Source: Nocardioides sp. dk884
Lineage (GTDB): Bacteria > Actinomycetota > Actinomycetes > Propionibacteriales > Nocardioidaceae
DNA length: 64,000 nt
Direction of reading: 5' to 3'
Assembly: GCF_009557055.1 (NCBI RefSeq)
Contig: NZ_CP045649.1
Coordinates: forward strand, 1,587,501-1,651,500
In this document: positions 34,514-45,359 of the stretch, piece by piece
Layout of the letters: each line of letters opens with the position of its first letter
Position numbering within the stretch: position 1 is the stretch's first letter
Made by a program: the position numbers and the translations under genes
Notes under the pieces: generated by a model
Seen by the model: only the letters and a program-made list of their open reading frames with translations
Databases searched by the model: none
What the model was told of the DNA's origin: nothing

Positions 34514-34558
34514 CACGACGGCGCGGATCGTGCCGGAGACGCGGGTGCGGTGTGGGTC

Positions 34559-34702: not shown

Positions 34703-35974
34703 ATGATCCGCTCCACTCGCGCACGTCGCGCGGCCGTCGCCCTGGCGGCGACCGCACTCGTCCTCACCGCCTGCGGCAGCGAGGACGACGACTCCGACAA
34801 CAACGCAGCCGACGACACCGAGTCGTCGGCCCCCGCCGCCCAGGGCGACGGCGTCCTCAACATCGGCATGCTGCTTCCGCAGACCGGTGACCTCGCCTAC
34901 CTCGGCCCGCCGGAGTTCGCGGGCGTCGAGCTCGCCATCCAGGAGATCAACGAAGCCGGGGGCGTGAACGGCAAGCCGGTCAAGTCCTCGCGCGCCGACT
35001 CCGGTGACGGCACCCCCGACATCGCCGGCGCGTCGGTCGACTCGCTCCTCGGTGACGGTGTCGACACCATCATCGGTGCGGCGGCGTCGGGCGTCTCGCT
35101 CAGCGTCATCGACAAGATCACCGGCGCCGGTGTGGTGCAGTTCTCCCCGGCCAACACGGCCGCGGCGTTCGACACCTACGACGACAACGGCCTGTACTTC
35201 CGCACCGCCCCCTCGGACCGCCTCCAGGGCCAGGTGCTGGCCAACATGGCAGTCGAGGACGGCTTCTCCAACGTCGCCGTCGTCGCCCGTCAGGACGCCT
35301 ACGGCGAGGGTCTGGCCGAGCAGGTCGTCGAGACCCTCGAGGAGCAGGGCGCCACTGTGGCGTCCGACATCCTCTACGCCGCGGACGCCCAGAACTTCAC
35401 GGCCGAGGTCAACGAGCTCGCGGCCGCCAAGCCCGACGCGATCGTCCTGGTGGCCTTCAATGAGACCACCAAGATCATCCCGCAGCTGATCTCGAAGGGC
35501 CTCGGCCCGCAGGACGTGCAGCTGTACTTCGTCGACGGCAACATGGCCGACTACTCCACGGAGAACTTCGACCTCACGGGCGTCAAGGGCACCTTCCCGG
35601 CGCCGGCCGAGGTCGACGAGGAGTTCAACAACAAGCTCAAGAGCATCGACAAGGGCCTCAAGGACTTCACCTACGGTCCGCAGTCCTACGACGCCACGAT
35701 GCTGACCGCGCTCGCGGCCATCGCGGCCGGTGACGACTCCGGTGAGGCGATCGCCTCGGAGATCGTCAACGTCTCCAAGGACGGCGAGGCGTGCAGCACG
35801 TTCGCGGACTGCGTCGAGCTGCTCGAGGCCGGCGAGGACATCAACTACGAGGGCGTCTCCGGTCCCTCCGACCTCAACGACTCCGGCAGCCCGAGCGCTG
35901 CGACCATCGGCATCCAGGAGTACAAGGGCAACAAGTACTCCCAGATCGACTCGGTCTCCGGCGTCCTCGACTGA
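34703..35974 (+). CDS. livK: Branched-chain amino acid ABC transporter, substrate-binding lipoprotein
   Basis: A 423-aa periplasmic-binding-protein type I lipoprotein. The signal peptide ends in the lipobox LTAC (Cys at about 24) followed by an acidic linker, then LNIGMLLPQTGDLAYLGPPEFAGVELA, typical of LivJ/LivK. ATG at 34703 follows CGGAGG. The permease and ATPase genes lie downstream on the opposite strand (36076-40294), so the transporter is split into two convergent units. Confidence 0.93.
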   Translation: MIRSTRARRAAVALAATALVLTACGSEDDDSDNNAADDTESSAPAAQGDGVLNIGMLLPQTGDLAYLGPPEFAGVELAIQEINEAGGVNGKPVKSSRADSGDGTPDIAGASVDSLLGDGVDTIIGAAASGVSLSVIDKITGAGVVQFSPANTAAAFDTYDDNGLYFRTAPSDRLQGQVLANMAVEDGFSNVAVVARQDAYGEGLAEQVVETLEEQGATVASDILYAADAQNFTAEVNELAAAKPDAIVLVAFNETTKIIPQLISKGLGPQDVQLYFVDGNMADYSTENFDLTGVKGTFPAPAEVDEEFNNKLKSIDKGLKDFTYGPQSYDATMLTALAAIAAGDDSGEAIASEIVNVSKDGEACSTFADCVELLEAGEDINYEGVSGPSDLNDSGSPSAATIGIQEYKGNKYSQIDSVSGVLD

Positions 35975-36075: not shown

Positions 36076-36921
36076 TCAGGCCTGGGCGAGGGTGCCCAGG
36101 TAGAGCTCGATCACCTTCGGGTCGGTCGCCAGGTCGCGCCCGGATCCGGTGTAGGCGTTGCGGCCCTGGTCGAGCACGTAGCCGCGATCGCAGATCTCCA
36201 GGCAGCGGCGGGCGTTCTGCTCCACCATGACCACCGAGACGCCCGCCCGGTTGATCCGGCGGGTCTGCACGAACACCTCGTCCTGCATGACGGGGGACAG
36301 GCCCGCGGACGGCTCGTCGAGCAGCAGCACCGACGGGTTCATCATCAGCGCCCGGCCCATGGCGACCATCTGCCGCTCACCGCCCGAGAGCGAGCCCGCG
36401 CGCTGGCCGCGCCGGTCGCGCAGGGCGGGGAAGAGCTCGGCGACGAAGTCGAAGCGCTCCCGGAAGCTGCTCGGGCGCTGGAAGCACCCCATCTCCAGGT
36501 TCTCCTGGATGGTCAGCGTCGGGAACACGTTGTTCGACTGCGGCACGAAGCCGATGCCCTTGGAGACCAGCGAGTCGGCGCGCTCGTTGGTGATCGACTG
36601 ACCGTGCAGCGTGACCGTGCCCGAGCCGATCTTCACCAGGCCGAACAGCGCCTTGAGCAACGTGGACTTGCCGGCGCCGTTCGGTCCGATGATGCCGACC
36701 AGCTCGCCCTCGTGGCAGTACAGGTCCGCGCCGTTGAGGATGTTGACGCCCGGCAGGTAGCCGGCGATCAGGTCGTCGGCGCGCAGCAGCGCGCCCTCGG
36801 CGCGGGCGAGGTGCTCGCGCCGCGCCGCGGCCGTCGCGTCCTCGCCGGCCGCGGTGGCGGGACCCGCCCCGGGGTCGGGCAGACCGGGGTCGGAGGTTGC
36901 GGGCGTTCCGGGATCAGCCAT
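36076..36921 (-). CDS. livF: Branched-chain amino acid ABC transporter ATPase LivF
   Basis: ABC ATPase, 281 aa. Walker A GPNGAGKST, signature LSGGERQ, Walker B LLLDEPSAGLSP and the H-loop region MVEQNARRCLEI. LivF-specific features are the short NBD and VPQSNNVFPTLTIQENLEMG. An unusual N-terminal extension of about 45 residues, Pro/Ala-rich, precedes the domain. The start overlaps the end of livG by 8 bases. Confidence 0.94.
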   Translation of the reverse strand: MADPGTPATSDPGLPDPGAGPATAAGEDATAAARREHLARAEGALLRADDLIAGYLPGVNILNGADLYCHEGELVGIIGPNGAGKSTLLKALFGLVKIGSGTVTLHGQSITNERADSLVSKGIGFVPQSNNVFPTLTIQENLEMGCFQRPSSFRERFDFVAELFPALRDRRGQRAGSLSGGERQMVAMGRALMMNPSVLLLDEPSAGLSPVMQDEVFVQTRRINRAGVSVVMVEQNARRCLEICDRGYVLDQGRNAYTGSGRDLATDPKVIELYLGTLAQA

Positions 36922-37924
36922 GCTCGTTCCCCTTCGGGTTCTCGTCGCGCCCGCCGGTCAGCTCGCTCTCGGCCTCGGCGAGGATCTCGTCCTCGGACGC
37001 GTCCAGCGAGACGTCGTGGTGGGCGCCCAGGTAGGCGTCGATGACGCGCGGGTCGCTCATCACGCTGTGCGGCGGCCCCTCGGCGATGATCCGGCCCTGG
37101 GCCATCACGATGACCCAGTCGGAGATGTCGCGGACCATGTCCATGTCGTGCTCGACGAAGAGCACGGTGCGGCCCTCGTCGCGCAGCGACTTCACGTGGC
37201 CCAGCAGGGACTGCTTCAGCGCCGGGTTCACCCCGGCCATCGGCTCATCGAGCATCACCAGGTCCGGGTCCGCCATCAGCGCGCGCGCCATCTCCAGCAG
37301 CTTGCGCTGACCGCCCGAGAGAGAGCCGGCGAAGTCCTCGCGCTTCTTGATGAGCAGGAAGCGCTCGAGCAGCGCGTCGGCCTTGCGGGTGTTCGCCTGC
37401 TCCTGGGCGCGCCACAGGAACGGGAACATCGCCTTGGCCAGCCGCTCGCCGCTCTGCCCGGTGGCTCCGGTGCGCATGTTCTCGATCACCGTGAGCTTGG
37501 AGAGCACCTTGGTGAGCTGGAAGGTGCGCACCATGCCCATCCGGGCGACCTTGTACGCCGGGACCCGGGCCAGGTCGTGGCCGCGGAAGGACCAGCTGCC
37601 CGAGTCGGGCTTGTCGAAGCCGGTCAGCAGGTTGAAGAAGGTGGTCTTGCCGGCGCCGTTGGGCCCGATCAGCGCCGTGATCGCGCCGCGCTGGATCTCG
37701 ACGTGGTCGACGTCGACGGCCTTGAGCCCGCCGAACGTGCGGGTGACGCCGGTGGCCACCAGGATCGGGTCCGGCTTGCTCGCGCCGGGCTCGTGCTCCA
37801 CCTCGGTGAACATGTGGGCGGCGCTCGACCGGGCGGTGGTGGCGCCGCCACCCGCACCCGGGGCGTCGTACGACGGGGTGGCGCCGGGCAGGCCGGCGTC
37901 CTCGAACTCGTTGTCAGCGGCCAT
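36914..37924 (-). CDS. livG: Branched-chain amino acid ABC transporter ATPase LivG
   Basis: ABC ATPase, 336 aa, longer than the usual 255 because of an N-terminal extension of about 55 residues and an acidic C-terminal tail. Walker A GPNGAGKTT, signature LSGGQRKLLEMARAL, Walker B LVMLDEPMAGVNP and FVEHDMDMVRDISDWV are typical of LivG. It overlaps livM by 11 bases and livF by 8. Confidence 0.94.
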   Translation of the reverse strand: MAADNEFEDAGLPGATPSYDAPGAGGGATTARSSAAHMFTEVEHEPGASKPDPILVATGVTRTFGGLKAVDVDHVEIQRGAITALIGPNGAGKTTFFNLLTGFDKPDSGSWSFRGHDLARVPAYKVARMGMVRTFQLTKVLSKLTVIENMRTGATGQSGERLAKAMFPFLWRAQEQANTRKADALLERFLLIKKREDFAGSLSGGQRKLLEMARALMADPDLVMLDEPMAGVNPALKQSLLGHVKSLRDEGRTVLFVEHDMDMVRDISDWVIVMAQGRIIAEGPPHSVMSDPRVIDAYLGAHHDVSLDASEDEILAEAESELTGGRDENPKGNEHG

Positions 37925-38903
37925 CGATCGCCAGCTCCCTTCGGTCGCCGAAGATGCCTTGGGGTCGGTAGATCATGAGCAGCATCAGCGCGAGGCCCAG
38001 CACGATGAAGCGCATCAGCCCTGCCTGGTTCTGGTCCATGATCGCCTGCGGGATGACGTCGTTGGCAGCAGCCTGCCGGAAGAACGCGTCGAGGAAGTTG
38101 ATCAGACCCCAGAAGATCAGCGCACCGGCCACGGGGCCGAAGACCCGCGCGGCGCCGCCGAGCAGCAGGATCGTGTAGGCGAAGAACGTCGTGTCGGTCG
38201 CGTAGTCGGTGGGGATCACCGCGGCCTTGCCGAGTCCGTAGATGTACCCGGCGAAGGCGCCGAAGATGCCGCCGATCACGAGCGACTGCATCTTGTAGGC
38301 GTAGACGTTCTTGCCGAGGCTGCGTACGGCGTCCTCGTCCTCGCGGATCGCCTTGAGCACGCGGCCCCACGGGCTGCGCATCAGCGCCCACACGATGAGG
38401 CAGCAGATCGCGACCAGGATCCAGCCGACGGTCATCACCCAGAAGTCGTTGGGGCTCCAGGTCACGCTGCCGATGCTGACGCTGGAGGAGTAGGGGTTCA
38501 GCTCGCGGAAGTCGCCCACGAAGCTGTTCAGGCCGTCCTGGCCGCCGAACCACTCCAGCAGGGTCACCGATCCGGCCGTCTGCCGGATCATCTCGGCGGC
38601 CGCGATCGTCACGATCGCGAGGTAGTCGGCCCGCAGCCGCAGGGTGGGGATGCCGAGCAGGAGGGCGAGCACCGCGGCGAGCACGATGCCGATGGCGATG
38701 CCCGCCCACAGGGACAGGCCCCAGGTGGCGACGGCGGAGGCCATCGCGTAGCCGCCGATCGCCATGAAGCCGGCCTGGCCGAAGTTGAGCAGTCCGGTGT
38801 AGCCGAAGTGCACGTTGAGGCCGATGGCGGCCAGACAGTAGACGATCGCGAGCGGGCCGAACGCCTGCTGCACCGTCGTGGTCAGGATGGTGCCGAAGTC
38901 CAC
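37914..38903 (-). CDS. livM: Branched-chain amino acid ABC transporter permease LivM
   Basis: Inner-membrane permease, 329 aa, with about eight to ten TM helices. Family blocks: GLNVHFGYTGLLNFGQAGFMAIGGYA, i.e. the LivM/LivH 'G..GL.NfG.agf...GAY' motif; IVTIAAAEMIRQTAGS; and the EAA-like loop SPWGRVLKAIREDEDAVRSLGKNV. The GTG at 38903, eight bases after the livH stop, is chosen over the much longer open frame upstream. Confidence 0.93.
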   Translation of the reverse strand: MDFGTILTTTVQQAFGPLAIVYCLAAIGLNVHFGYTGLLNFGQAGFMAIGGYAMASAVATWGLSLWAGIAIGIVLAAVLALLLGIPTLRLRADYLAIVTIAAAEMIRQTAGSVTLLEWFGGQDGLNSFVGDFRELNPYSSSVSIGSVTWSPNDFWVMTVGWILVAICCLIVWALMRSPWGRVLKAIREDEDAVRSLGKNVYAYKMQSLVIGGIFGAFAGYIYGLGKAAVIPTDYATDTTFFAYTILLLGGAARVFGPVAGALIFWGLINFLDAFFRQAAANDVIPQAIMDQNQAGLMRFIVLGLALMLLMIYRPQGIFGDRRELAIDGR

Positions 38904-38911
38904 GGGTTCTC

Positions 38912-40294
38912 CTAGCCGATGCGCTGGGCCCGGCCGAGCAGACCCTGGGGACGGATGAGCAGGACGATGATGAGGACGGCGAGCGCGCCGACGTACTTGA
39001 GCTCGGCGGGCACGAAGAGCGTGGAGACCTCGACGAAGATGCCGATCACGAAGGCGCCGATCATCGCGCCCCAGATGGTGCCGAGGCCACCGAGCACGAC
39101 CGCCGCGAAGATCAGCAGGAGCAGCTTGAAGCCGATCTGGAAGTCGAAGCCCTGGGTGACGCCGAGGAGCGCCCCGGACATGGAGGCCAGGGCGACGCCG
39201 ACGGTCCACACCAGCGCGATCACCCGCTGCACGTTGATGCCCGAGGAGGCCGCGAGGCCCGGGTTGTCGGCGACCGCGCGGGTGGCCTTGCCCATCCGGG
39301 TCATCTGGATCAGCAGCGAGACCGCGACCAGGACCACCAGGCCGGCCACCACGACGATCATGTCGCGCGGGGTGACGAGCAGCGGCCCGATCTCCCAGGG
39401 GGTGCTGGCGGAGTACTGGCTGTAGTTGTGGTTCGAGCCGCCCGCGATGTACTGGTAGACGCTGCGCAGGAAGATCGACAGACCGATGCTGACGATCATC
39501 ATCGCGATGACGCCGGTGCCGCGGATGCGCAGCGGGCGCCACAGGGCGCGGTCGTTGAGGTAGCCGAACAGGCCGCCCGCGACGAACGCGACGACCACGC
39601 CGACGATGACGGTGACGTCCCAGCCGGTCCCGGGGATCGTGATCGCGCCCGGGAGCAGGTCGATGCCCCAGGCGACCAGGGCGCCGAAGGTGACCAGCTC
39701 GCCGTGGGCGAAGTTGGTGAGCCCGGTCGTGCCGAAGATCATCGACAGACCCAGGGCCGCCATCGCCAGGCAGACCGAGAACACCAGGCCGCCGACGGCG
39801 AGCTGGAGGCCCCGGGTGAACTTGCCGGCGGACTCCGGGAGCGCGTCACCGATCGGGAACGTGACCGTCTGGTCGCTGGTGGTGTCGAAGTTGACGGTGA
39901 GCTCCACCTGGTCGGGGTTCCGCAGGTCCGAGCCCTCGGGGAGGGTGTCCTCGTCGATGCGGATGGTGAAGTCCTTGCCGAGGTTCGACAGCGGCTCGCC
40001 GGGCAGCGCCACGTCGAAGACGCCGCTCTCGTTGGTCTCGACGGTCTCGATCGTCTCGCCCGCGGCGTCCACGACCGTCACCGTCACGCCGGGGACCGGA
40101 GCCGGGGGGTCCTCGCGCTGGTCGCGCAGGCAGCCCTTGAGGTGGATCTCGGGGTCGTCGTTCGGTTGGAACTGACAAGCGGCGGGCTCTTCGGCCGCCC
40201 GAGCAGGCGAGGCGCCGGCTCCCAGGAGCAGGACCATCAGCGCGACCAGCAGTGCGCCGGTCACCGCCGCGACCTGCGTGACTCGGGTGTGCAT
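38912..40294 (-). CDS. livH: LivH permease with an extra exported N-terminal domain
   Basis: A 460-aa protein against the usual 290-310. Residues 1-33 are a signal peptide (SPARAAEE cleavage region). Residues about 35-150 form an exported domain with two cysteines (40 and 55), PGVTVTVVDAAGE and ESGVFDVALPG, which look like a carboxypeptidase-regulatory or Cna-B-type beta-sandwich. From residue 162 a full LivH permease follows, with MIFGTTGLTNFAHGELV and the loop TRMGKATRAVADNPGLAASSG. First gene of livH-M-G-F. Confidence 0.92.
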   Translation of the reverse strand: MHTRVTQVAAVTGALLVALMVLLLGAGASPARAAEEPAACQFQPNDDPEIHLKGCLRDQREDPPAPVPGVTVTVVDAAGETIETVETNESGVFDVALPGEPLSNLGKDFTIRIDEDTLPEGSDLRNPDQVELTVNFDTTSDQTVTFPIGDALPESAGKFTRGLQLAVGGLVFSVCLAMAALGLSMIFGTTGLTNFAHGELVTFGALVAWGIDLLPGAITIPGTGWDVTVIVGVVVAFVAGGLFGYLNDRALWRPLRIRGTGVIAMMIVSIGLSIFLRSVYQYIAGGSNHNYSQYSASTPWEIGPLLVTPRDMIVVVAGLVVLVAVSLLIQMTRMGKATRAVADNPGLAASSGINVQRVIALVWTVGVALASMSGALLGVTQGFDFQIGFKLLLLIFAAVVLGGLGTIWGAMIGAFVIGIFVEVSTLFVPAELKYVGALAVLIIVLLIRPQGLLGRAQRIG

Positions 40295-40642: not shown

Positions 40643-41389
40643 TCAGGAGAACGCGGCGACCAGGCTCACGAGCAGCGGCGCGATGACGAGCGCGGGCAGC
40701 AGATCGGCGACGGGGACCTCGCGGATGCGCAGCAGGCGCAGCGCGATGCCGATCAGCAGCAGCCCGCCCACCCCGCCCACCGCGGCGAGGTGTGCCTCGG
40801 GCAGCACGTCGCCCAGGCCGAGACCCACCAGCGTGAGCGTGCCCTGCACGACCAGCACGGTGAGCGCGCTGGCCGCGACGCCCCAGCCGAACGACGCGGC
40901 GAACGCGATCGCGGCGAAGCCGTCCAGGGCGGACTTCAAGATCAGCTGGTCGGCGCCGGCGCCGAGGCCGTCGTTGAGGGAGCCCAGGATCGTCAGCGGG
41001 CCCGTGCAGAACAGCAGCGAGGCGGCGACGAAGCCCTGGACGAAGCGCTGTCGCTCGGCGCTCCCGGCCTCGCCGGAGAGCCGGCGCTGGAGGAAGCCGC
41101 CCAGCGCCTCCACCCGCTGCTCGAGGCGCAGCAGACTGCCCACGATCCCACCCAGCAGGACTGCGCCCAGGACGATCAGCAGCGGTGCACTGCTCCCGAC
41201 CTCCGCCTCGAGGGCGGGGGAGAGCACGTCGGCGGCCGTGGTGGCGGCGATCAGCAGGGTGACCAGCCCGAGCCCGTCGGTGACCGCGTCGCGGGTGCGC
41301 TGCGGCAGCCGGTTGCCGAGCAGGACGCCGAGCAGCGAGCCGACCAGCACCGCGACGACGTTGACGGCCGTGCCTGTCCCTGGGATCAC
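40643..41389 (-). CDS. DUF554 membrane protein
   Basis: About 248 aa with seven hydrophobic segments; a YdfK-like DUF554 transporter of unknown substrate. The N-terminal GTAVNVVAVLVGSLLGVLLGN, internal GFVAASLLFCTGPLTILGSLNDGL and LKSALDGFAAIAFAASFGWGV are the conserved DUF554 blocks. The GTG at 41389 has GGAGAGG six to seven bases upstream and is preferred over the GTG at 41398, which would abut that site. Confidence 0.9.
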   Translation of the reverse strand: MIPGTGTAVNVVAVLVGSLLGVLLGNRLPQRTRDAVTDGLGLVTLLIAATTAADVLSPALEAEVGSSAPLLIVLGAVLLGGIVGSLLRLEQRVEALGGFLQRRLSGEAGSAERQRFVQGFVAASLLFCTGPLTILGSLNDGLGAGADQLILKSALDGFAAIAFAASFGWGVAASALTVLVVQGTLTLVGLGLGDVLPEAHLAAVGGVGGLLLIGIALRLLRIREVPVADLLPALVIAPLLVSLVAAFS

Positions 41390-41561
41390 CCGACGCACCT
41401 CTCCTCATCGACCGGGTCGCCCGCCCCTGCGTCCGCACTGGTGTGACTTGGGTGAGCCGGACTGACGCCGAGGCCGGGCTGAGCGTAGTCTCACCTCCCG
41501 GAGGAGGCCTGTACGGGGACTTCGGCCTCCCGACACCCCGAGCCCGGAAGGCGTAGGAACG

Positions 41562-42140
41562 TTGAGCCGTACCCTCGTGTCCCTACGCGCCGCCACCTCC
41601 GGTGACGCGCCGTTCCTCGCCACCCTCTGGCGTGACTCGCTGCGCCGCGGCGACTACGCCGAGCAGGTCGCCGACGTCGAGGCGGTGATCGCCCGGGCCG
41701 CGGACTCCGCCACCATGCGGGTGCTGCTGGCCGAGTACGACGGCCACCCGGCGGGCGCGGTCTGCCTGCGCGTCACCACCAAGTCCATGATCAACCTCGA
41801 GCCGGCCGTGCAGGCGCAGTCCCCGCACGTGCTGCCCGAGTTCCGCCGCCACGGCGTGGGCCGCCAGCTGATGGAGGCCGCCGTGTCGTACGCCGAGGAG
41901 CTGGGCATCGCGCACCTGATGACCGCGGCCGCCTCGGGCTCACGCGACGGCAACCGGTTCATGGCGCGCCTGGCCCTGGGCCCGCAGGCGGTGCTGCGCA
42001 TCGCCCCGACCCAGGTCGTGCGGGCCAAGCTCAACGCCCAGCGTCCGGCCGCCCAGCGCCCGGGTCGTCAGCTGGGCACCGTCCTGGCGGCGCGCCGCTC
42101 GATGCGCCGCTCCCACCCGCCGGTGCCGCAGGACGGCTAG
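41562..42140 (+). CDS. GNAT-family N-acetyltransferase
   Basis: A 192-aa acetyltransferase. Acetyl-CoA motif A is HVLPEFRRHGVGRQLMEAAVSYAEELG-like, with the R/Q-x-x-G-x-G core RRHGVG at about residues 98-103. The last 45 residues are Arg/Pro-rich and basic. TTG at 41562 is the only start giving the RAATSGDAPFLATLW first strand-helix of the fold. Substrate unknown. Three near-copies of a 10-base unit (CTAGGACCGG) span its stop region, 42138-42166. Confidence 0.85.
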   Translation: MSRTLVSLRAATSGDAPFLATLWRDSLRRGDYAEQVADVEAVIARAADSATMRVLLAEYDGHPAGAVCLRVTTKSMINLEPAVQAQSPHVLPEFRRHGVGRQLMEAAVSYAEELGIAHLMTAAASGSRDGNRFMARLALGPQAVLRIAPTQVVRAKLNAQRPAAQRPGRQLGTVLAARRSMRRSHPPVPQDG

Positions 42141-42156
42141 GACCGGCAAGGACCGG

Positions 42157-42633
42157 CTAGGACTGGCGTGCGGTGCCCAGGCCGACGCGGTCCAGGGGGA
42201 CCAGCGCGCAGGTGATCCGCGAGGTGCAGACCCGCTTGCCGCGCTCGTCGGTGAGCACCACGTCGTAGGACGCCGAGGTGCGCCCGAGGTGGATGGCGGT
42301 CGCCGTACCGGTGATCACGCCGCTGGTCGCCGAGCGGTGGTGGGTGGCGTTGATGTCCACGCCGACCGGCGCCCGGTCGGGGTAGCCGTGCAGGCCCGCG
42401 CCGATGGAGCCGAGGCTCTCGGCGAGCACCACCGAGGCGCCGCCGTGCAGCAGGCCGTAGGGCTGGGTGTTGCCCTCGACCGGCATCGTCGCCACGACGC
42501 GCTCTGCGGAGAGCTCGAGGAGCTCGATGCCCATCTTCTCGTTCAGGGCGCCCATGCCGTGGGGCATGCTCGCGATGTAGTCCTCGACGCTCGGGACGGT
42601 GCTCTGGTGGCTCTCGGCGCTCATGCGCTGCAT
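42157..42633 (-). CDS. PaaI-type hotdog thioesterase
   Basis: A 158-aa hotdog-fold acyl-CoA thioesterase (PaaI/EntH-like). The active-site block is QPYGLLHGGASVVLAESLGS (conserved HGG and following Glu), then GVDINATHHRSATSGVI and VVLTDERGKRVCTSRITC. The second ATG at 42624 (MSAESHQ) is an equally good start. It is divergent from polA across 47 bases and convergent with the GNAT gene. Confidence 0.9.
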   Translation of the reverse strand: MQRMSAESHQSTVPSVEDYIASMPHGMGALNEKMGIELLELSAERVVATMPVEGNTQPYGLLHGGASVVLAESLGSIGAGLHGYPDRAPVGVDINATHHRSATSGVITGTATAIHLGRTSASYDVVLTDERGKRVCTSRITCALVPLDRVGLGTARQS

Positions 42634-42667
42634 TGTTGCCGACGACCGGAGCGTCGGTGCCGCCGGA

Positions 42668-42673
42668 TAGAGT
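42668..42673 (+). promoter_or_regulatory. -10 element of polA (leaderless)
   Basis: TAGAGT lies seven bases before the GTG at 42681; inferred +1 is at or one base before the start codon. Confidence 0.45.
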
Positions 42674-42680
42674 CAGGCGG

Positions 42681-45359
42681 GTGCCTGAGCCGATCACCCC
42701 GCGCCTGCTCCTCCTCGACGGCCACTCGCTGGCCTACCGCGCGTTCTTCGCGCTGCCGGTCGAGAACTTCTCCACCACGACCGGACAGCACACCAACGCC
42801 GTCTACGGCTTCACCTCGATGCTCATCAACGTCCTGCGCGACGAGCAGCCCACCCACGTCGGGGTGGCCTTCGACGTCTCGCGCCAGACCTTCCGCCTCG
42901 CGGAGTACGCCGAGTACAAGGCCAAGCGCGCCAAGACGCCCTCGGAGTTCGGCAGCCAGCTGCCGCTCATCGAGGAGGTCCTCGCCGCCCTGCGGATCCC
43001 GTTCCTGAAGAAGGACGGCTACGAGGCCGACGACATCATCGCCACGCTCACCACCCAGGCGCTCGCCGAGGGCATGGAGGTGCTGATCCTCACCGGCGAC
43101 CGCGACGCCCTCCAGCTGGTGACCGACCGCTCCACGGTGCTCTACCCGATGCGCGGCGTCTCCGACCTGGCCCGGATGACTCCGGCGGCCGTCGAGGCGA
43201 AGTACGGCGTGCCCCCGCAGCGCTACCCCGAGCTGGCCGCGATCGTGGGGGAGACCTCCGACAACCTCCCCGGTGTCCCCGGGGTCGGGCAGGGCTTCGC
43301 CGCGAAGTGGATCAACACCTACGACGGCCTCGACAACGTCATCACCCACGCCGACAAGATCACCGGCAAGAAGGGCGAGGCGCTGCGCGCCCACCTCGGC
43401 GACGTGATCCGCAACCGCCACCTCAACGCCCTGGTCCGCGACCTCGAGCTCGACCTCGGGCCGGCCGACCTCGCGCTGCGGCCGTGGGACCGCCACGAGG
43501 TGCACACGCTCTTCGACGGCCTGGAGTTCCGGGTGCTGCGCGACCGCCTCTTCGAGACGCTCAGCTCGGAGGAGGAGATCGACGAGGCCGGGTTCGAGGT
43601 CGCGATGAGCCGCCCGGGCGCCGGCGAGGTCGGTGCGTGGCTGGCCGAGCACGCCTCCTCCGGCGCGCGCGTCGGCGTGGAGGTCCAGGGCCGGTGGGGC
43701 GCCGGCACCGGCGACGTCGACTCGATCGCGCTCGCCACCCCCGACGGCGCGGCCTGGTTCGCGGTCGCCGACCTCGACACCGCCGACACCTCGGCCCTCG
43801 CCGGCTGGCTGGCCGACGCCGCGCAGCCCAAGGTCCTGCACGACGCGAAGGGGCCCATGCAGGCGCTCGCCGCGTTCGGGATGCCGCTGGCCGGGCTGGC
43901 CCGCGACACCGCGATCTCGGCGTACCTCGCCCGTCCCGACCAGCGCTCCTACGACCTGGCCGACCTGACCGTGCGCTACCTCAAGCGCGAGCTGCGCCAA
44001 GGCAGCGCCGACGAGGGCCAGCTCAGCCTCGACGGTCTCGACGACGGCTCGGCGGGCGAGCTGGAGATGCTGCGCGCGAGCGCTGTCCTCGACCTCGCCG
44101 CCGCCCTCGACGAGGACCTGGAGGAGCGCGGCGGCACCCGGCTGCTCGAGGACATCGAGCTGCCGCTGGTCCACCTGCTCGGCGCCATGGAGCGCACCGG
44201 CATCGCCGTGGACGCCGACCACCTCGAGGCGCTGCAGGAGCACTTCGGTGAGGAGGTCCGCCGCGCCGCGGACGAGGCGTACGCCGTGATCGGCAAGGAG
44301 ATCAACCTCGGCTCGCCCAAGCAGCTGCAGGTGGTGCTGTTCGACGAGCTGGGGATGCCCAAGACCAAGCGCACCAAGACCGGCTACACCACCGACGCCG
44401 ACGCGCTGCAGTCGCTCTACGTCAAGACCGAGCACCCGTTCCTGCTCCACCTGCTGCGCCACCGCGACGTCATCCGGCTGCGCCAGACCATCGAGGGACT
44501 GCTCAAGACCGTCGCCCCCGACGGGCGCATCCACACGACGTTCAACCAGACCATCGCCGCGACCGGCCGGCTCTCCAGCACCGAGCCCAACCTGCAGAAC
44601 ATCCCGGTGCGCACCGAGGAGGGCCGGCGCATCCGTGAGGGCTTCGTGGTCGGCGAGGGCTATGAGTCGCTGATGACGGCCGACTACAGCCAGATCGAGA
44701 TGCGGATCATGGCCCACCTCTCCGGTGATGAGCTCCTGATCGAGGCGTTCCGCTCCGGGCAGGACTTCCACTCGATGACCGCCGCCCGGGTCTTCGGCGT
44801 CCCGGCCGACGAGGTCAGCCCCGAGCAGCGCGCCAAGATCAAGGCGATGAACTACGGCCTGGCCTACGGGCTGTCCGCGTTCGGGCTCAGCCAGCAGCTC
44901 GGGATCGAGCCGGCCGAGGCGCGCGGGCTGATGGAGGAGTACTTCCTCACCTTCGGTGGCATCCGCGACTACCTCGGCGGCGTGGTCGACGAGGCCCGGC
45001 GCACCGGGTTCACCGAGACCATCAAGGGCCGTCGCCGCTACCTGCCGGACCTGACCAGCGACAACCGCCAGCGCCGCGAGATGGCCGAGCGGATGGCGCT
45101 CAACGCGCCGATCCAGGGCTCGGCCGCCGACCTGATCAAGATCGCGATGCTCGAGGTCGACGCCGCGATCGCCGAGGCCGGGCTGCGCTCGCGGCTGCTG
45201 CTCCAGGTCCACGACGAGCTCGTGCTCGAGGTCGCGCCGGGGGAGTGCGAGGAGCTCGAGGCCCTGGTGCGCCGCCACATGGGCGCCGCGGCCGACCTCA
45301 GCGTGCCCCTCGACGTCTCGGTCGGCACCGGTCGCAGCTGGCACGAGGCCGCGCACTAG
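42681..45359 (+). CDS. polA: DNA polymerase I
   Basis: 892 aa, used for Okazaki fragment maturation and repair. The N-terminal 5' nuclease domain (LLLLDGHSLAYRAFF, YEADDIIATL, ILTGDRDALQLV, VGETSDNLPGVPGVG) is intact. The middle domain has the exonuclease fold but lacks the D-x-E and other acids (GVEVQGRWG in place of the first motif), so proofreading is lost, as in mycobacterial PolA. Polymerase motifs A (TADYSQIEMRIMAHL), B (RAKIKAMNYGLAYG, with Tyr at the O-helix selectivity position) and C (LLQVHDELVLE) are intact. GTG 42681 is chosen over TTG 42633. Confidence 0.96.
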   Translation: MPEPITPRLLLLDGHSLAYRAFFALPVENFSTTTGQHTNAVYGFTSMLINVLRDEQPTHVGVAFDVSRQTFRLAEYAEYKAKRAKTPSEFGSQLPLIEEVLAALRIPFLKKDGYEADDIIATLTTQALAEGMEVLILTGDRDALQLVTDRSTVLYPMRGVSDLARMTPAAVEAKYGVPPQRYPELAAIVGETSDNLPGVPGVGQGFAAKWINTYDGLDNVITHADKITGKKGEALRAHLGDVIRNRHLNALVRDLELDLGPADLALRPWDRHEVHTLFDGLEFRVLRDRLFETLSSEEEIDEAGFEVAMSRPGAGEVGAWLAEHASSGARVGVEVQGRWGAGTGDVDSIALATPDGAAWFAVADLDTADTSALAGWLADAAQPKVLHDAKGPMQALAAFGMPLAGLARDTAISAYLARPDQRSYDLADLTVRYLKRELRQGSADEGQLSLDGLDDGSAGELEMLRASAVLDLAAALDEDLEERGGTRLLEDIELPLVHLLGAMERTGIAVDADHLEALQEHFGEEVRRAADEAYAVIGKEINLGSPKQLQVVLFDELGMPKTKRTKTGYTTDADALQSLYVKTEHPFLLHLLRHRDVIRLRQTIEGLLKTVAPDGRIHTTFNQTIAATGRLSSTEPNLQNIPVRTEEGRRIREGFVVGEGYESLMTADYSQIEMRIMAHLSGDELLIEAFRSGQDFHSMTAARVFGVPADEVSPEQRAKIKAMNYGLAYGLSAFGLSQQLGIEPAEARGLMEEYFLTFGGIRDYLGGVVDEARRTGFTETIKGRRRYLPDLTSDNRQRREMAERMALNAPIQGSAADLIKIAMLEVDAAIAEAGLRSRLLLQVHDELVLEVAPGECEELEALVRRHMGAAADLSVPLDVSVGTGRSWHEAAH

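Follow-up and report, generated by a model that had tools for sequence, protein, structure and literature searches.

A predicted CnaB-like exported domain on the LivH permease marks a widespread type of branched-chain-amino-acid-type importer in Actinomycetota

The fusion of an exported-looking beta-domain to the N-terminus of a LivH permease is the hallmark of a distinct and widespread importer type of Actinomycetota. It was studied starting from a stretch of 64,000 nucleotides of Nocardioides sp. dk884 (contig NZ_CP045649.1, positions 1,587,501 to 1,651,500), referred to as the window, and the label type E was coined here for importers whose LivH belongs with the LivH of the window. LivH-type permeases are common importers, and the type-E system is a variant of the known branched-chain-amino-acid-type importer. 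The reading that we favour, at a probability of roughly 0.45, is that the domain stands outside the membrane and has a role in docking or gating.

Results and discussion

The livH gene and its start site

The features of the operon and its flanks are collected in Table 1. The initial annotation of this DNA proposed a LivH with an exported-looking N-terminal domain fused ahead of a complete permease, and the ORF, Pfam and the structural model agree on this arrangement. The permease part matched BPD_transp_2 (PF02653) over residues 167-445 with the whole model covered (E 7.5e-37, 127 bits vs a cut-off of 26.8). The score with the NCBIfam LivH equivalog NF008011 was 133 bits, under the cut-off of 379, so the equivalog name is not claimed and LivH denotes here the family and the place in the operon. 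An identity as UrtB was rejected on score (TIGR03409, 134-136 bits vs a cut-off of 250.3).

The first ATG of livH has AGGAGG just upstream. Codons 131-170 contain no ATG, GTG or TTG; the nearest alternative starts would be GTG 130, which lacks a preceding Shine-Dalgarno sequence, and GTG 171, which lies within TM1. A LivH of normal length therefore cannot start near codon 155, and initiation at that point, singled out beforehand as the observation to look for against the fusion, is contradicted. A start-site artefact, in which the true protein would be a normal LivH made from near codon 155, was also considered for the family, using as relatives the best 80 of 576 confirmed loci from a contig profile scan with the family alignment. 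It could draw on the start codon with a Shine-Dalgarno-like tetramer that occurs in the 28 codons around the TM1 start in 19 of the 79 relatives examined. The window DNA itself rules the artefact out, and for the family it is hardly credible, as 70 of the best 80 of 576 loci have a Shine-Dalgarno-like tetramer at the start assigned to livH (the assignment favoured such sites) and close pairs of sequences bear the mark of purifying selection described below.

The claimed signal peptide was recovered as a signal-like start, helical over residues 2-25 in the model and with low pLDDT at residues 27-36. A lipobox-like match was found in the LivH leader of one of the best 80 of 576 loci (L072). The two cysteines pointed out earlier are present in the window, but they are a feature of some clades, since two Cys or more N-terminal to the permease were counted in only 12 of the 80 relatives (best 80 of 576 loci; signal segment included, starts approximate).

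Table 1. Features of the type-E liv operon and its flanks in the window
Feature	Position	Strand	Basis or remark
Extended LivH (type E), 460 aa	38912..40294	-	ORF, Pfam and start-site reading
Signal-peptide-like segment of LivH, residues 1-34 (helix 2-25, then AXA-like site)	40193..40294	-	Read from sequence; model
Predicted extracytoplasmic CnaB/prealbumin-like domain of LivH, residues 38-150; Cys40 and Cys55	39845..40183	-	Model, Foldseek, VIA-align, Pfam
BPD_transp_2 permease part of LivH, residues 158-460	38915..39823	-	Pfam 167-445 and AlphaFold2
LivM, 329 aa, AGGAG upstream of start	37914..38903	-	Pfam, start-site reading
LivG, 336 aa, N-terminal tail of ~53 residues ending EPGASKPDPI	36914..37924 (tail 37766-37924)	-	ORF, Pfam, tail comparison
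LivF, 281 aa, N-terminal tail of ~44 residues	36076..36921 (tail 36790-36921)	-	ORF, Pfam, tail comparison
LivK-like lipoprotein (Peripla_BP_6), ~423 aa	34703..35974	+	Convergent with livHMGF
DUF554 protein	40643..41398	-	Flank in 10/18 polA regions
GNAT acetyltransferase	41562..42140	+	Flank in 13/18 polA regions
4HBT thioesterase	42157..42633	-	Flank in 16/18 polA regions
DNA polymerase I (polA)	42633..45359	+	18/18 regions (chosen for polA)

Predicted fold of the exported domain

The window LivH was modelled by AlphaFold2 from 55 sequences with a mean pLDDT of 89.4, and the ten-residue blocks over residues 41-150 averaged 88-97. Seven strands were placed between residues 51 and 148, the last at 142-148, with the TM1 helix (158-190) following at most ten residues further on, and the beta-sandwich was confidently predicted to span approximately residues 45-150. 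The domain modelled alone (49 sequences) reached a pLDDT of 91.7. A Foldseek search with the latter model ranked Lig v 1, from the plant Ole e 1 family, first by E-value, followed by the CnaB2 structure 8bdw, SdrD, GBS52 and UafA among others; the TM-score vs 8bdw_H was 0.60 by query and 0.72 by target. In VIA-align the domain gave Z of about 10-11 to SdrD, TIE, GBS52, transthyretin-like proteins and CnaB. The exported domain is thus predicted to have a CnaB/prealbumin-like fold, and its model superposes on CnaB structures.

The CarboxypepD_reg/Cna-B-like pattern reported in the initial annotation is borne out by the model, by VIA-align and by the Foldseek search suggested with it, in which CnaB, SdrD B and transthyretin-like folds were found; the Pfam match lies below the cut-off. 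CarboxypepD_reg (PF13620) matched residues 53-98 of the window LivH at E 9.1e-5 and 23.2 bits, missing the gathering score of 32.3, and the domain alone gave 27.1 bits, still under this value. The score rose to 64.6 bits for the LivH of locus L010, which has two copies of the domain, and a match at E<=0.01 was obtained for 46 of 49 family domains, that of the window included. A PDB sequence search with the N-terminal profile returned SdrD at E 5e-7; a collagen adhesin, TolR and further proteins followed with weaker matches. The same search with the whole LivH gave no match at E<=0.1, so the PDB holds no close solved relative from which the outer face of LivH could be read.

Isopeptide-forming CnaB domains carry a Lys in the first strand, an Asn or Asp in the last strand and a catalytic Glu. 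Membership in this group was rejected, since in the alignment of 55 sequences Lys is found at residue 53 in 6 of 54 and at residue 57 in 6 of 54, and no triad is conserved. The type-E domain would share its fold with the CnaB, SdrD B and SpaA prealbumin-like domains but differs from them in being placed on a permease, mostly as a single copy, and in having no conserved isopeptide residues. By analogy with the stalks of CnaB adhesins, the domain might be a wall-side spacer or anchor that places the importer under the peptidoglycan. The predicted fold is common to SdrD, UafA and pilin stalk domains, the domain is duplicated in tandem in L010 and L105, and acidic low-complexity linkers occur in Glycomyces. 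This function is nevertheless improbable: without a conserved strand-1 Lys there is no conserved isopeptide triad, a single domain of ~110 residues would make a short spacer, and at the N-terminus of a membrane protein a C-terminal sortase signal would be out of place.

The conserved residues of the domain comprise G91, P119 and S/T87 (55/55 each), L118 (53/55) and D114 (49/55). The family has no conserved Cys, and beyond D114 and S/T87 an invariant polar cluster was not found in residues 45-159 (55 sequences). Together with the limitation of the two Cys to some clades, this makes it very improbable that the domain gates or feeds the transporter by binding a small ligand or ion, even though transthyretin-like and HIU hydrolase structures, whose fold prompts the idea, reach Z of about 10 vs the domain in VIA-align. 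A second point on the side of ligand binding is that the window LivH weakly matches the NCBIfam model of NikL, a protein of nickel ECF importers (17 bits vs a cut-off of 100, E 0.0034).

Distribution and conservation of the fusion

The best 80 of 576 loci all come from Actinomycetota and represent at least 10 named families. A domain HMM was made with 12 sequences from the window and its genus. It matched all 80 of these loci (worst E 3.1e-13) as well as every one of 29 phylum loci and of 8 type-E polA regions, 7 of these regions having contributed to the HMM. It matched none of 16 classical loci (14 distinct), none of 6 sister loci and none of 7 loci of own-genome paralogues, two of which overlap. 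The 80 relatives were ranked with a domain-bearing query and the 29 phylum loci were fetched by the domain, so neither set measures how often the domain is absent from type-E LivH. The sets of loci overlap, as L075 (Nocardioides furvisabuli) appears to be the same record as contig 31 of G007.

For a fair test the permease part alone was used as the query against an even sample of 396 Actinomycetota genomes. At >=218 bits it was found at no fewer than 65 places in 61 genomes, which is a lower bound since at most five candidates were scored per genome. A domain match was present at 61 of the 65 best permease-only places, the match in G231 being incomplete and lying at a contig edge. Three other places (G104, G420 and G297) were cut by contig ends, the end of the domain being still visible in G297. 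Only one of the 65, G161 (L170:5968-6882, minus strand), is truly without the domain and has kept the signal-like start. The fusion, for which a genome survey had been recommended, is therefore the rule in type-E LivH and not unique to the window strain. Domain matches at E<1e-15 outside the 65 places were obtained in G201 (split over contigs), in G314 (C95) and as a second one in G152. No domain was seen in six loci read from the next permease tier, which are 37-43 % identical. A tally of domain matches in 130 genomes at E<=0.001 contained many weak matches in long unrelated frames and is not a count of fusions.

In a tree of 74 LivH sequences the 45 type-E rows, two of them contig-cut (G297 and G420), grouped together with the domain-less G161 at a support of 100/99, and the classical LivH from the polA side formed a separate clade (98/92). 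As G161 falls inside the type-E group, the 45 type-E rows alone are not strictly one clade. The LivH rows from the genus of the window were interspersed with those of other families, a pattern suggestive of transfer within the phylum.

The domain is under purifying selection in close pairs. In six such pairs (L012 used twice) dN/dS was 0.06-0.31 for the domain and 0.07-0.35 for the permease, and the signal segment was near 1 in two of the six. In a more distant pair, the window vs L030, dN/dS amounted to 1.15 for the domain vs 0.41 for the permease, the domain thus being the faster-evolving part; the mean column consensus was 0.48 for the domain vs 0.65 for the permease. A chance resemblance of the N-terminal domain was rejected on the basis of its spread and of the purifying selection in close pairs.

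Several variants of the arrangement were met in these searches. The G161 LivH looks like a natural deletion of the domain. Two type-E LivH of Nocardioides type (L010:1498-3051, minus strand, and L105:5626-7176) have two tandem copies of it. Two type-E liv operons adjoin each other divergently in G299, and G245 has two operons far apart (loci L181 and L179/L180 for the two genomes). In a plasmid search, matches in Nonomuraea gerenzanensis and an Arthrobacter extended into the domain (query residues 80 and 109).

The liv operon and the polA locus

All parts of a LivKHMGF importer were found in the window, i.e. an adjacent LivM, two ATPases and a Peripla_BP_6 protein. The ORF of the LivK-like protein opens at 34550, but its ATG at 34703 has GGAGG before it and a lipobox-bearing leader after it. 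LivM follows LivH in all of the best 80 of 576 loci, and 75 of these loci have LivG, 70 LivF, 61 a binding protein and 40 polA, with no violation of the livHMGF order. Nine of the ten loci without LivF end at most 130 bases past the last liv match; in the tenth, L108, 736 bases are left with no LivF match. The type-E system resembles the classical LivKHMGF importer in permease family, H-M-G-F order, the LivK-like lipoprotein nearby and the same polA-side locus. It differs in the signal-like start and predicted beta-sandwich on LivH, in the tails of LivG and LivF and in the binding-protein gene, which is mostly on the opposite strand (58 of the 61 named loci among the best 80 of 576).

In the genus of the window, 13 of 25 genomes (its own and 24 others) have a type-E LivH and 12 a classical short LivH; no genome has both and none has neither. 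The classical orthologues were identified with the query L026 at E<=1e-66, L026 coming from one of the 12 genomes. The probability of such exclusion for random labels is 1 in 5.2 million, with kinship ignored. A 26th member of the genus, G405 from the phylum sample, gave no type-E match. polA was located within about 7 kb in the window and in 10 of the 11 other type-E genomes searched (in G011 it is on another contig; G004 was left out), and within about 12 kb of the classical liv genes in 12 of 12 genomes.

Eighteen polA regions, 8 of type E and 10 classical, all chosen for polA, were read. The window LivH is 28-34 % identical to the classical LivH of the same locus in 10 of 10 regions. Its LivG is 66-91 % identical to the type-E copies and 35-42 % to the classical ones, and its binding protein 38-92 % and 26-32 %, respectively. 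In 7 of 8 type-E regions the binding-protein gene and livHMGF are on opposite strands; in 9 of 10 classical regions it shares the strand of the other liv genes and lies upstream of them, with none found in G076. Whole operons of two kinds alternate at the polA locus within one genus, which argues that both do the same job. The type-E system would accordingly be expected to act in amino-acid uptake, as judged from its family and its mutual exclusion with the classical operon. Since the alternation is like for like at one locus, it provides matched pairs within one genus.

N-terminal tails of LivG and LivF

The unusual N-terminal extensions noticed on both ATPases proved to be real. The first ATG of the livF ORF is the sole start codon in the first 60 codons, and the motif in the LivG tail is conserved; later in-frame starts of livG at codons 38, 42 and 56 have no obvious Shine-Dalgarno sequence. 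The LivG pattern is PG followed by 1-3 residues and K-x-[DE]-[PA]. Of 75 relatives (from the best 80 of 576 loci) 70 have it, as do all 8 type-E regions, and it is missing in all 10 classical LivG. The LivF tail has a looser motif around a His, and the loose pattern was found in 52 of 70. In shorthand the motifs are EPGxxKPDPI-like in LivG and RxxHLxxAxGA-like in LivF. With rule-chosen starts the median tail before the core was 35 residues for LivG (74 loci) and 23 residues for LivF (73 loci, with a few wrong-gene matches). In the ten classical regions LivF tails are 0-8 residues long and those of LivG reach 35, so it is the motif and not the length that marks a type-E LivG. Read from sequence, the tails of LivG and LivF are further marks of the type-E system.

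Possible role of the domain

In the docking or gating reading, LivH would be inserted with its N-terminus outside, the signal peptide exporting a CnaB/prealbumin-like beta-sandwich of ~110 residues. The domain, in most members separated from TM1 by roughly ten residues, would then stand on the outer side of the permease, over the LivH mouth, where the binding lipoprotein would have to dock. Its likeliest job would be to shape the outer vestibule and to help the tethered binding lipoprotein to sit on LivHM, in the way of MalF-P2 and MalE. Residues 36-156 carry a net charge of -20 in the window and of -12.7 on average over 55 sequences (range -32 to +6), and positive charge in LivH is found at 252-261, at 331-354 and at the C-terminus. 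An acidic domain combined with positive loops and C-terminus is as expected for a domain-out orientation. The linker, measured in the alignment from the column of residue 149 to that of residue 160, has 9-11 residues in 44 of 55 sequences and 15-42 in the other 11. In Glycomyces (L040, L045, L046, L054, L056 and L063) the linker between the domain and TM1 has grown into an acidic low-complexity stretch.

The P2 region of MalF is placed between transmembrane helices. According to the part of a published account that bears on it (PMC3150292), the MalF-P2 segment contacts MalE, so that it resembles the type-E domain in being an extracytoplasmic, beta-containing region on a permease, partly touching the binding protein in that case; it is unlike the type-E domain in being an internal insertion (MalF residues 91-271) in a permease of a different family. 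By this analogy, docking of the LivK-like lipoprotein by the domain is plausible. Docking is opposed by the lack of co-variation with the binding protein, the long linkers in 11 of 55 sequences, the domain-less G161 and the faster evolution of the domain. The co-variation was assessed by a mirror-tree approach at the 52 loci, among the best 80 of 576, in which every gene was complete, with the other subunits controlled for, and the partial correlation of the domain with the binding protein was -0.07, with 440 of 500 permutations as high.

This negative result leaves standing a rather unlikely alternative, that the domain serves mainly the biogenesis or stability of LivH, a cleavable signal peptide forcing the N-out orientation and the folded domain capping TM1 without any contact with the binding protein. 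Between the end of the domain and TM1 there is just a short linker in 44 of 55 sequences, and in G161 the signal-like start persists without the domain, both of which fit this alternative; against it, the sister and classical LivH insert with neither a domain nor a signal-like start, and a mere cap would not need the conserved motifs G91, P119 and L118. Biogenesis is also favoured by the UrtB of S. meliloti (537 aa; L182:1730-3343). This protein belongs to the permease family of LivH and has a signal-like start and, in the corresponding position ahead of TM1, a segment that looks exported. That segment gave no significant alignment with the type-E domain; unlike the latter it has a weak HEAT_2 match below the cut-off and appears to be alpha-helical, so the position tolerates different folds. 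The UrtB of Novosphingobium (297 aa) is without an N-terminal extension. As the UrtB and type-E segments are unrelated, the outer N-terminus of these permeases has seemingly been decorated at least twice.

In permeases of the GlnP/OpuA type the fused exported domain is the substrate-binding protein itself. They share with type E an exported domain fused to the permease of an ABC importer and differ from it in that the type-E domain is not the binding protein. No description of the type-E LivH fusion was found among the matches listed in a search of open PMC papers, and it may be reported elsewhere. A subclade with a fixed domain, sister and classical forms without it and one natural loss make the role of an extracytoplasmic domain on a permease directly testable.

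A broader proposal would treat type E as a separate mechanistic class, in which the domain is a receptor arm for the lipoprotein (or an extracytoplasmic regulator), the two ATPases bear matched conserved tails and operons have been exchanged repeatedly at the polA locus of Actinomycetota; taken jointly, these points make a tentative and somewhat doubtful case. At the same 52 loci, the partial correlation of the domain was 0.13 with LivG, with 2 of 500 permutations as high, and 0.14 with LivM. Of the two domain correlations that were permuted, the one with LivG stood out.
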